In this document: piece by piece, positions 48,909-60,590 of the stretch
Layout: the number at the start of each line of letters is the position of its first letter
Numbering within the stretch: the first letter of the stretch is position 1
Assembly: GCF_003233655.1 (NCBI RefSeq)
Contig: NZ_CP029834.1
Coordinates: forward strand, 248,001 to 312,000
Origin: Azospirillum ramasamyi
GTDB lineage: Bacteria; Pseudomonadota; Alphaproteobacteria; Azospirillales; Azospirillaceae
Length of the DNA stretch: 64,000 bases
Reading direction: 5' to 3'
The notes under the pieces: model-generated
Database searches by the model: none
The model's input: the letters and a program-made list of their open reading frames with translations, nothing else
What the model was told of the DNA's origin: nothing
Translations under genes and position numbers: made by a program

Positions 48909-48990
48909 TGAGGGGCCGTTAGCCCCCCGCCTACCCTCCCCCGCTGGGCGGGGGAGGGTTGGGGTGGGGTGGGAGCCTAACGACCCCTCA
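48909..48990. terminator. large nested hairpin between hbdA and thiD
   Basis: An inner perfect 12-bp stem (ACCCTCCCCCGC / GCGGGGGAGGGT, 3-base loop, 48933-48959) sits inside a 14-bp outer stem (48909-48922 with 48977-48990, one mismatch) that includes the thiD stop codon. It lies between convergent genes and probably ends both transcripts. There is no T-tract. Such hairpins are often dispersed repeats in these genomes. Confidence 0.65.
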
Positions 48991-57789: not shown

Positions 57790-58149
57790 TCAAACCGCGA
57801 TCCGCATGATCTCCTGATAAGCCTGGACCATCTTGTCGCGGATGGCGACGACGCTCTGCACCGTCATCTCCGCGGCCAGGACCGAGCGGACCACCTCCTG
57901 CGCGCTCGCCTTCCCCGAAACGGCGGCCAGCGAGACGCGCTCGCTCTCCTTCAGCGTCTCGACCGCCTGCGAGATCGACTTGTCGAGGAAGCCGCCGAAG
58001 TCGCTTTCGGCGCTGGGCGCCACCGCTCCGGTCCGGTTGGCGGCGGACAGCGGCGAGGCCGCCGTCTGCGTTTCAGCGAGGCCCGCGGTGAAGGGGCTGC
58101 GGTTGGCGGCATAGGCGGCGGCGACGCGGCCGACGGACATCTCGATCAT
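57790..58149 (-). CDS. fliE: flagellar hook-basal body protein FliE
   Basis: A 119-aa adaptor between the MS ring and the rod. The conserved C-terminal half reads VLAAEMTVQSVVAIRDKMVQAYQEIMRIAV, diagnostic of FliE, preceded by LKESERVSLAAVSGKASAQEVV. It lies 11 bases after flgC and 43 before fliQ. Confidence 0.94.
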   Translation of the reverse strand: MIEMSVGRVAAAYAANRSPFTAGLAETQTAASPLSAANRTGAVAPSAESDFGGFLDKSISQAVETLKESERVSLAAVSGKASAQEVVRSVLAAEMTVQSVVAIRDKMVQAYQEIMRIAV

Positions 58150-58160
58150 GGAAAGGCTCC

Positions 58161-58580
58161 TCAGCTGCGCAGCAGGTCGACGACGCGGGTCATCATCGCG
58201 CGCGACTGTTCGATGACGTTCATGCTGGCCTCGAAGGCGCGGCCGGCCTCCCGCATGTCCATCATCTCGATCAGCGACTGGACGTTCGGCTTCTTGACGT
58301 AGCCCTTGTCGTCCGCCGCCGGATGCGAGGGATCGTATTCGAGCTTGAAGTCGCTGCGGTCGCGGCCGATCTGCTTGACCTGCACCAGTTCCGCGCCGAC
58401 GCTGCGGTCCATCACGCTGTCGAAGGAAACGGTCTTGCGGCGGTAGGGGTCGCCGCCCTTGGTGGTGGCGGTGGAATCGGCGTTGGCGAGGTTTTCGGCA
58501 ACCACGCGCAGCCGGGTCGATTGCGCCTGCAGGCCGGCACCGGCGATCTTCAGCGTGGTGCCGAGGGCGTCGTTCATCAT
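58161..58580 (-). CDS. flgC: flagellar basal-body rod protein FlgC
   Basis: A 139-aa proximal-rod protein. The N-terminal motif STRLRVVAENLANADSTATTKGGDPYRRKTV and the C-terminal VIEQSRAMMTRVVDLLRS are the rod-protein signatures. Length is normal. Separated from flgB by a 147-base block of hairpins. Confidence 0.95.
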   Translation of the reverse strand: MMNDALGTTLKIAGAGLQAQSTRLRVVAENLANADSTATTKGGDPYRRKTVSFDSVMDRSVGAELVQVKQIGRDRSDFKLEYDPSHPAADDKGYVKKPNVQSLIEMMDMREAGRAFEASMNVIEQSRAMMTRVVDLLRS

Positions 58581-58614
58581 GGCTCGTCTCCGTCTCGAAT
58601 ACCGTCAGCCGCCC

Positions 58615-58640
58615 CTAAAGCGAATTTGCATTCGCTTTAG
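58615..58640 (-). repeat. perfect hairpin upstream of flgC
   Basis: An 11-bp perfect stem (CTAAAGCGAAT / ATTCGCTTTAG) with a 4-base loop, 35 bases before the flgC ATG. It is similar in sequence to the palindrome overlapping the flgB stop codon. Confidence 0.7.
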
Positions 58641-58671
58641 CTTCATACGACCTCATTCGCCGGTCTGGCTT

Positions 58672-58689
58672 CGGCCGCATGAGCGGCCG
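58672..58689 (-). repeat. central hairpin in the flgB-flgC gap
   Basis: CGGCCGC-ATGA-GCGGCCG, a perfect 7-bp G+C stem between the two TAAAGCG-type palindromes. Confidence 0.6.
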
Positions 58690-58707
58690 GGGCCGCCGTC
58701 GCGGTCC

Positions 58708-58729
58708 AAAGCGGATTGCAATCCGCTTT
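58708..58729 (-). repeat. perfect palindrome overlapping the flgB stop codon
   Basis: A 22-bp perfect palindrome with half-site AAAGCGGATTG. Its last bases on the gene strand contain the flgB stop codon. It is a sequence relative of the hairpin at 58615. Confidence 0.75.
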
Positions 58730-59120
58730 AGCCGTTTCGCCAGGCCATGCGCAGCATCTGCACATTGCGCTGGAACAGGCCGGTGGTCAGCGCGAAGGCG
58801 TCGCGGGTCTCGCTGCCCTTGATCATCTCCTGCTCCAGCGACACGGCGTTGCCGGAGGGCGTCGTTTCCCACAGCCCCGCCTTGCCCGCCTCGCGGAAGC
58901 CGGCGGTGGAGCGCCCGCCCGCCAGATGCAGGCCGGAGGTGCGGACGGTCTCCACCGGCCGGATGCCCTCCATCACGCTGTCGAAGGATTTCAGGTCACG
59001 CGCCTGGTAGTCGGGCGTGTTGGCGTTCACGACATTCTCGGCGACCAGCTTCTGCCGCTGCGCCAGATAGTCCATGCGCGTGCCGGCAAGCTGAAAGAAA
59101 CCGATTTTACCTAAATCCAT
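58728..59120 (-). CDS. flgB: flagellar basal-body rod protein FlgB
   Basis: A 130-aa proximal-rod protein. RMDYLAQRQKLVAENVVNANTPDYQARDLKSFDSVM is the family-typical N-terminal motif, and LFQRNVQMLRMAWR ends the protein. ATG at 59120 is preceded by a GAGGT ribosome site; the frame seven codons upstream is less likely. First gene of the minus-strand flagellar operon, divergent from fliI. Confidence 0.93.
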   Translation of the reverse strand: MDLGKIGFFQLAGTRMDYLAQRQKLVAENVVNANTPDYQARDLKSFDSVMEGIRPVETVRTSGLHLAGGRSTAGFREAGKAGLWETTPSGNAVSLEQEMIKGSETRDAFALTTGLFQRNVQMLRMAWRNG

Positions 59121-59180
59121 TGCGACCTCGTTCCATCTCATCTGGCCGGAACACTGGGCCGGACGATGAACGCGCCCGTT

Positions 59181-59196
59181 TAAAACCGGATTTAAA
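59181..59196. promoter_or_regulatory. TTTAAA-CCGG-TTTAAA element between flgB and fliI
   Basis: The near-palindromic TTTAAAACCGGATTTAAA (59179-59196) lies 60 bases upstream of flgB and about 33 bases upstream of fliI. On the minus strand TTTAAATCCGGTTTTA matches the element before flhA with one base inserted. Half-sites TTAA suggest a CtrA-like regulator, but spacing departs from TTAA-N7-TTAA. Confidence 0.55.
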
Positions 59197-59228
59197 TTCC
59201 CTGCTCTAGGCTGCCTTCATCGACGGAC

Positions 59229-60590
59229 ATGATGGAGACAGCGCCGATGCCGGCACTCGCCACACTGGCGGCGGAACTCGAACGGCTGCCGACGCGCCAC
59301 TGGCGCGGGGAAATCCGCTCCGCCGCCGGCATGACGCTGGAGGTCGACGGACTGCAGCGCGTGCTGTCGGTCGGCGACAAATGCCATGCGGAAACCGTGC
59401 GCGGCGGCCGGGTGCTGTGCGAGACCGTCGGATTCCGCAACGGCCGCTCGCTGCTGATGGCCTTCGACAATCTGGACGGCGTGGCCGAAGGCTGCGCCGC
59501 CATCACCGACGACACCGCCTTCACCCTCCGCCCCGGTCCCGGCTGGCTCGGCCGGGTGGTCAATGCGCTGGGCGAGCCGATCGACGGCAAGGGCCCCCTG
59601 GTCAATGGCGAGCACCCTCGGTCCCTGCGCCAGCCGCCGCCGGCCGCCTGCGCCCGCCGCCGGGTGGGGAAGCGGCTGGACAGCGGCATCCGGGTGATCG
59701 ACAGCTTCGTGCCGCTGTGCCGCGGCCAGCGGCTGGGCGTCTTCGCCGGGTCCGGCGTCGGCAAATCCACCCTGCTGGCGATGGTCGCCCGCCATGCCGA
59801 GGCAGACGCCATCGTCATCGGCCTGATCGGCGAGCGCGGGCGCGAGGTGCGCGAGTTCATCCAGGACGATCTGGGGCCGGAGGGGCTGGCGCGTTCCGTC
59901 GTCATCGTCGCCACCTCCGACGAGCCCCCGCTGATGCGCCGGCAGGCCGCCCTGCTCTGCATGACGGTGGCGGAGGAGATGCGCGACCAGGGCAAGCACG
60001 TGCTTTGCCTGATGGACAGCGTCACCCGCTTCGCCATGGCCCAGCGCGAGATCGGGCTGGCCGCCGGGGAACCGCCGACCGCCAAGAGCTATCCGCCCAG
60101 CGTCTTCGCCGAACTGCCCCGCCTGCTGGAGCGCGCCGGTCCCGGACCGGAAGGAGGCGGAGAGGGCGACATCACCTCCATCTTCACCGTCCTGGTCGAC
60201 GGCGACGACCACGACGAGCCCATCGCCGACGCGGTGCGCGGCATCCTCGACGGACATCTGGTGCTCGACCGCAAGATCGCCGAACAGGGGCGCTATCCCG
60301 CCGTCAACCTGCTGCGCAGCGTATCGCGCACCCTGCCCGGCTGCCACGACGCGCGGGAGAACCGCATCGTCGGCCGCGCCCGCGCGCTTGCCGCCACCTA
60401 TGACGGCATGAGGGAGATGATCCGGCTCGGCGCCTACAAGCGCGGCACCGATCCGGAAACCGACGCCGCCATCGACCTGAACCCGCGGCTGGAGGAGTTC
60501 CTGCGCCAGGGCAAGGACGATCCCTCCCCTTCCGCCGACAGCTTCGCGCATCTGGACGCGCTGCTCGCCGCCATCGGAGCCCAATCATGA
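59229..60590 (+). CDS. fliI: flagellum-specific ATP synthase FliI
   Basis: A 453-aa F1-beta-like ATPase that feeds unfolded substrates to the export gate. Walker A is GSGVGKST (about 175), then GLIGERGREVREF, Walker B DSVTRFAMAQREIGLAAGEPP, and the type III ATPase segment KSYPPSVFAELPRLLERAG. The N-terminal part (about 1-95) corresponds to the hexamer-docking domain. The start could also be at ATG 59232 or 59247. Divergent from flgB. Confidence 0.95.
   Translation: MMETAPMPALATLAAELERLPTRHWRGEIRSAAGMTLEVDGLQRVLSVGDKCHAETVRGGRVLCETVGFRNGRSLLMAFDNLDGVAEGCAAITDDTAFTLRPGPGWLGRVVNALGEPIDGKGPLVNGEHPRSLRQPPPAACARRRVGKRLDSGIRVIDSFVPLCRGQRLGVFAGSGVGKSTLLAMVARHAEADAIVIGLIGERGREVREFIQDDLGPEGLARSVVIVATSDEPPLMRRQAALLCMTVAEEMRDQGKHVLCLMDSVTRFAMAQREIGLAAGEPPTAKSYPPSVFAELPRLLERAGPGPEGGGEGDITSIFTVLVDGDDHDEPIADAVRGILDGHLVLDRKIAEQGRYPAVNLLRSVSRTLPGCHDARENRIVGRARALAATYDGMREMIRLGAYKRGTDPETDAAIDLNPRLEEFLRQGKDDPSPSADSFAHLDALLAAIGAQS

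Follow-up and report, generated by a model that had tools for sequence, protein, structure and literature searches.

What are the hairpins that lie between the first two flagellar rod genes of Azospirillum ramasamyi, and do they serve the operon? In the stretch of 64,000 nt that was analysed (positions 248,001 to 312,000 of contig NZ_CP029834.1, here called the window), flgB, flgC and fliE follow one another on the minus strand, and a gap of 147 nt (58581-58727) separates flgC from flgB (58728-59141). FlgC and FliE were identified by matches above curated cut-offs, and FlgB by matches below them. A sequence-only reading of this DNA had described three hairpins in the gap (an 11-bp stem, a 7-bp stem and a 22-bp palindrome), and had proposed either that they stabilise or cut the mRNA or that they are insertions of a palindromic mobile repeat. 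The coordinates bear out the three stems, although a fourth (58690-58707) had been overlooked (Table 1). We consider, with a probability of about 0.9, that they form one copy of a 111-bp non-autonomous element, a MITE of the IS630 type that belongs to Azospirillum. A second FlgB, 41% identical to that of the window, is encoded at C1:1235303-1235704 of the same genome, which therefore holds two sets of rod genes.

Table 1. Features of the flgB-flgC region of A. ramasamyi, in positions of the window.
Feature	Position	Strand	Remarks
flgC	58161..58580	-	intact, 139 aa
Whole repeat copy	58615..58731	+	117 nt including one flanking target base per side (C ... G); identity to the 117-nt consensus 96%
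End hairpin A	58615..58640	+	11 bp, loop of 4
Left TA of target duplication	58616..58617	.	from flanks and empty sites
Element proper	58618..58728	+	111 bp, AAGCG...CGCTT; borders constant in 96 complete copies; an IS has the same borders
Place of the family GANTC	58640..58644	+	GCTTC in the window copy
Core hairpin 1	58672..58689	+	7 bp, loop of 4
Core hairpin 2	58690..58707	+	family stem 7 bp; window copy with one weak pair, G-U (on + RNA) or A-C (on - RNA)
End hairpin B	58708..58729	+	22-bp perfect palindrome; covers two bases of the flgB TAA (58728-58730)
flgB stop codon TAA	58728..58730	-	TA from target, last A from element
Right TA of target duplication	58729..58730	.	also the first two bases within the flgB stop codon
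flgB coding sequence	58731..59141	-	intact, 137 aa; the stop codon adds 58728-58730

Taken alone, the stems are only weakly unusual, since each of 20 dinucleotide shuffles of the window also yields 0-4 raw hits; perfect stems of at least 10 bp with a loop of at most 4 occur at three places of the window, two of them in the flgB-flgC gap and the sole other one at 48935-48957. The motif AAAGCGRATTNNAATYCGCTTT, allowing up to three mismatches, has two matches in the window, both in the gap, and none in 100 shuffles. Searched for in the whole genome (6.3 Mb), the palindrome AAAGCGRAT-N(0-10)-ATYCGCTTT is found at 40 places, against 0 for the reversed control. Fourteen of these places make up seven pairs, that of the window included, which are spaced by 90-91 nt and enclose the same core, and at most of the remaining places a slightly mutated second end is present. 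Likewise, blastn with the 117-nt consensus gives 40 copies in this genome (40 scored of 128 first-look candidates), and a 22-nt piece of the core, at up to three mismatches, is met at 45 places, against 3 for its control. All the stems are parts of one 117-nt unit that recurs whole, a point that the sequence-only reading had missed; the outer hairpins do share the TAAAGCG arm, as had been noticed, but they form the termini of one element and are not two members of a family of palindromes.

A group of stems in an operon spacer could also be a regulatory RNA or a terminator that is native to the rod operon and has nothing to do with mobile DNA. This reading has been discarded as extremely improbable, because the same 117 nt are present some 40 times elsewhere and are absent from the flgB-flgC gaps of the 29 relatives examined. 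In addition, no Rfam family reaches its gathering score (in the window, the weak matches fall outside the repeat; others are at chance level), and no terminator-like site, that is, a stem followed by a run of T, was found in 58100-59300.

Of 45 Azospirillum genomes, 19 hold copies of the repeat, and an exact pattern scan pointed to A. canadense and A. rugosum. Across the order, 20 of 82 genomes have matches, and in the only one that belongs to another genus these are all weak. Plasmid records with a match number 22, every one from Azospirillum, and the phage collection searched gave no match. The distribution is patchy, since the genomes nearest by FlgB (G036, G018 and G013) hold no copy; either loss or horizontal gain may lie behind this. 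In a genome of another genus of the family (G048), tandem GC-rich units weakly resemble the core of the repeat (L316), and 357 first-look candidates were recorded there. For the alignment by ends, 105 loci of six genomes were scanned, one of which (L150) has no copy; among the 104 copies, eight are incomplete and are omitted from all counts out of 96. The genomes other than A. ramasamyi are represented by their top-ranking copies only, at most 19 each, and the ranking query has C as its first and G as its last base, so that copies flanked by these bases may have been favoured. The repeat is short (111 bp), carries no transposase gene, is dispersed in many copies with constant borders and has terminal inverted repeats, TAAAGCGRAT and ATYCGCTTTA, in which 84.7% of cells pair and position 9 differs in 82 of 85 copies. 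A longer form with two extra hairpins near position 50 occurs at six loci (L317, L318, L320, L324, L325 and L326) of four other genomes (G008, G037, G004 and G001), and measures about 174 bp in L317, L320 and L326.

The flanks of the copies read YTA on the left and TAR on the right. In A. brasilense MTCC4039 all 19 copies have the form CTA...TAR; in A. ramasamyi TA stands at the left of 23 of the 36 copies, at the right of 29 and on both sides of 18, as expected if these copies are older. Two empty sites have been found in related strains. The first is TTAG in Azospirillum sp. TSH58, compared with TTA[element]TAG, and the second, where a response-regulator gene has its stop codon, is CTAG or CTAA in A. 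brasilense Sp7 and 2020WEIHUA_K, compared with CTA[element]TAG. In other relatives at these two sites (L303, L304 and L306) the joint has diverged, and a third locus gave no usable aligned empty partner among the relatives compared. The repeat thus inserts at the TA within YTAR and duplicates this TA, as the two sites show, the flanks at flgB-flgC being less exact. Two palindromes at a fixed spacing between genes would also fit a REP/BIME-like pair spread by a Y1 (REP-associated) transposase. Such an origin is highly improbable in view of the TA duplication at YTAR and the IS630-like ends; to our knowledge, REP transposases make no target duplication.

The history of the insertion at flgB can be sketched by comparison with relatives, of which 29 out of 44 had their FlgB loci examined. 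In these, 18-52 nt separate the two genes, as measured between their aligned ends, and all 29 gaps lack the element. The best match to the flanks (L110) reads GGC-TAAGGGAAGAACGGCTGACGGCATTCGAGACGG, compared with GGC-TA[element]TA-GGGGCGGCTGACGGTATTCGAGACGG in the window, with a length change of 7 nt. The target reconstructed at flgB is CTAG, and therefore the earlier stop codon of this gene would have been TAG (or TAA). In the proposed mechanism, a copy of the repeat landed in the stop codon of flgB and TAA was rebuilt from TA and the first A of the element, so that the present stop codon appears to use the element's first base. With an A as its first base, directly behind the TA, the element would itself restore the stop codon, and both rod proteins are intact.

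The question of what moves the repeat was addressed by seeking IS630 transposases (PF13358) in six genomes and reading their loci for the ends of the repeat. In A. brasilense MTCC4039 (G009), an insertion sequence annotated as an IS630 family transposase measures 1,060 bp between its TAs, has two frames whose overlap lies around seven consecutive A, suggestive of frameshifting, and encodes the domains DDE_3 and HTH_Tnp_IS630. Its ends sit at YTA/TAR sites, like those of the repeat. Matches to it number nine in G009, eight in G015 and one each in G037 and G012, and remnants are present in G003 and G028. It is thus intact in Azospirillum genomes other than that of A. ramasamyi, where no relative of it was found at E <= 1e-40; several copy-rich genomes, such as G027 and G010, lack it at this threshold as well. 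The repeat and this IS have in common the end sequence AAGCGRATT and the inner TTTAGATTC. The A end of the repeat agrees with the right end of the IS at 20 of 27 bases (nine of the first ten and all of the last nine), and the B end with its left end at 16 of 27; in 200,000 shuffles, these values were reached by none and by 0.02%, respectively. At the eight bases of the inner palindrome arms, IS and repeat agree at 0-2 of 8. The exact partner is uncertain, since the B end finds an almost equally good match (13-15 of 27) in other Azospirillum IS630s that have GAGCGGATT ends, and the outer nine bases, which partly fit other IS630s too, do not single it out; what singles out the 1,060-bp IS is the inner TTTAGATTC of the A end. 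At one locus (L250), a copy of the repeat adjoins this IS.

Two other candidates have been rejected as partners. The multi-copy IS630 of A. ramasamyi has ends that begin with GAGCATCG and match those of the repeat at 6-7 of 27 bases; it is a separate observation that this IS630 lies exactly at the right-hand TA of one copy of the repeat (L265/L073, C1, ~97838). The second candidate was an IS5-like transposase fragment beside a lone A end (L001). In this region (L327, C1:76600-79800), an A-end and a B-end remnant stand 2.9 kb apart, each beside IS5-like transposase sequence, but these are remnant ends only and do not bracket a transposon, because the insides of both face the same way. At the IS5-type (PF13340) loci examined, the repeat-like ends belong to nearby copies or remnants of the repeat.

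Dispersed copies with constant borders, a YTAR target with TA duplication and ends that match those of an IS630 of the same genus have been shown, and the earlier suggestion that a palindromic mobile repeat had been inserted is backed by the genome-wide copies, the empty sites, the duplication and the matching insertion sequence. Judged from their sequences, an IS630-family insertion sequence is most likely the mover of the repeat, and the transposase of the 1,060-bp IS would act by the cut-and-paste mode of IS630/Tc1/mariner elements. For ISY100, TA duplication by IS630-family cut-and-paste is established (PMC2170065). In A. ramasamyi the family is probably a fossil that no longer moves, since the search of this genome revealed no close relative of the IS and the copies present there have diverged.

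In 85 distinct copies, 97.3% of cells pair in the four local hairpins, and compensatory changes were counted at 10 pairs, with 53 cells changed on both sides (4.6 and 10.6 in shuffles), counts that are inflated by related copies. Sliding the partner columns cuts the pairing to 43% or less, and at columns 62-73 the forms C-G, A-U and U-A all occur. For the pairing of the two ends with each other, no covariation above shuffles was found in the same copies, and a single long hairpin made from both ends was discarded; it is thus the local palindromes that are kept. RNAalifold retained hairpin A and core hairpin 1 and paired the B region otherwise, a model result that speaks against taking B for a stable RNA hairpin on energetic grounds only. 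Folded singly, the sequence of the window copy does form hairpin B.

The repeat could be mobile in origin and now co-opted, its stems shielding or cutting the flgB-flgC mRNA and in this way setting the ratio of FlgB to FlgC. The spacer in the flg sense has a strong predicted fold (-72.3 kcal/mol, z = -5.4), those of the relatives are of 18-52 nt only, and for the NEMIS repeats of Neisseria processing by RNase III has been proposed (PMC2229807). Such a role is nevertheless very unlikely, as the element is at flgB-flgC in one genome only of those compared, and there is thus no conservation at this place; moreover, the same fold is present at dozens of unrelated genes, and the window copy shows no special upkeep, its GANTC being lost and one core pair weakened. 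The IS630-type MITE that we propose would most likely just lengthen and fold the spacer, with little or no regulatory role.

Landing in a stop codon is not peculiar to flgB, and copies so placed do not alter the protein. The terminal TAA of the element is the stop codon of a gene in 45 of the 96 complete copies (19 of 36 in A. ramasamyi). On 53 sides an open coding-like frame runs into the element, and for 46 of these it is the frame of this TAA. Stop codons were counted by a rule based on codon composition, not by curated genes, and background sites were scored alike: 7 of 80 YTAR sites of the window and flanks are in stop codons, as are 5 of 29 CTAR sites and 10 of 135 sites in the flg loci of relatives. 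For A. ramasamyi, p is 5e-7 against YTAR and 0.004 against CTAR, and a simpler gene model of the window places 4 of 44 YTAR sites in stop codons. By orientation, CTAA is used 38 times and TTAG 10 times, a bias that comes largely from the top-ranking copies of other genomes (8 and 5 in A. ramasamyi). Both the survival of harmless insertions and a preference for CTAR may contribute to this placement.

Another feature of the family is a GANTC at positions 26-30, kept in 72 of the 96 copies (19/19 in G009, 16/19 in G027, 16/19 in G028, 3/3 in the others and 18/36 in A. ramasamyi) and lost in the window copy, where GCTTC stands in its place. Of its five bases, the middle one varies most. A RAMA domain, which we take as a marker of CcrM, is found in all six genomes and, among 14 controls, in Caulobacter alone. 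What the CIR repeats are in Caulobacter and Brucella, this repeat might be in Azospirillum, with GANTC tying it to the CcrM methylase, a reading compatible with a MITE. As described in PMC2229807, the CIRs are likewise alphaproteobacterial repeats of about 110 bp with two hairpin arms and a linker, TA at the termini and GANTC, but without terminal inverted repeats, with GANTC at a loop (in Azospirillum it starts at the foot of hairpin A) and with mobility unexplained. This kinship is rather unlikely, since terminal inverted repeats are not reported for the CIRs, GANTC is kept in only half of the A. ramasamyi copies and lost in that of the window, and GATTC is also within the end of the 1,060-bp IS, where transposase binding could explain it. 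A wider proposal, that the alphaproteobacterial GANTC hairpin repeats, CIRs included, are IS630-type MITEs, appears quite unlikely. In it, transposition would be gated by methylation of the GANTC beside one end, the hairpin ends would be kept for transposition, and persistence would come from landing in stop codons with TAA restored by the element.

The nearest described kind, by analogy, is RUP of Streptococcus pneumoniae, a MITE proposed to be moved by IS630-Spn1, which is similar in length (107 bp compared with 111), in its TA duplication, in a terminal sequence of about 9 bp common with an IS630 and in its intergenic spread. Unlike RUP, as far as the review describes it, the Azospirillum repeat forms a separate hairpin at each end, where compensatory changes are seen, and it has GC-rich hairpins in its core, close to half of its copies in stop codons and GANTC beside one end (PMC2229807). 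The Correia/NEMIS repeats of Neisseria are also short and MITE-like, with TA ends and strong RNA folds, but their 24-bp terminal repeats pair end to end, a mutual pairing that is not conserved in Azospirillum (PMC2229807). The A. brasilense IS630, in turn, has the same TA/YTAR target and matches the outer 9-10 and inner 9 end bases of the repeat, but it encodes a transposase and lacks the inner palindrome arms. In the open-licence literature on Azospirillum with MITE, IS630 or palindromic repeats, no description of this repeat was apparent, and it is filed here as an apparently new IS630-type MITE of a known class, marked by its hairpin ends and stop-codon placement. The case cautions against taking such hairpins for regulatory RNA. 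What was an oddity between two rod genes can now be assigned to a known class, as a mobile hairpin repeat found across Azospirillum; since a single genus offers the partner IS, the target, the empty sites and the placement in stop codons together, its mobility, its decay, a possible methylation switch and its effects on operons become testable there.
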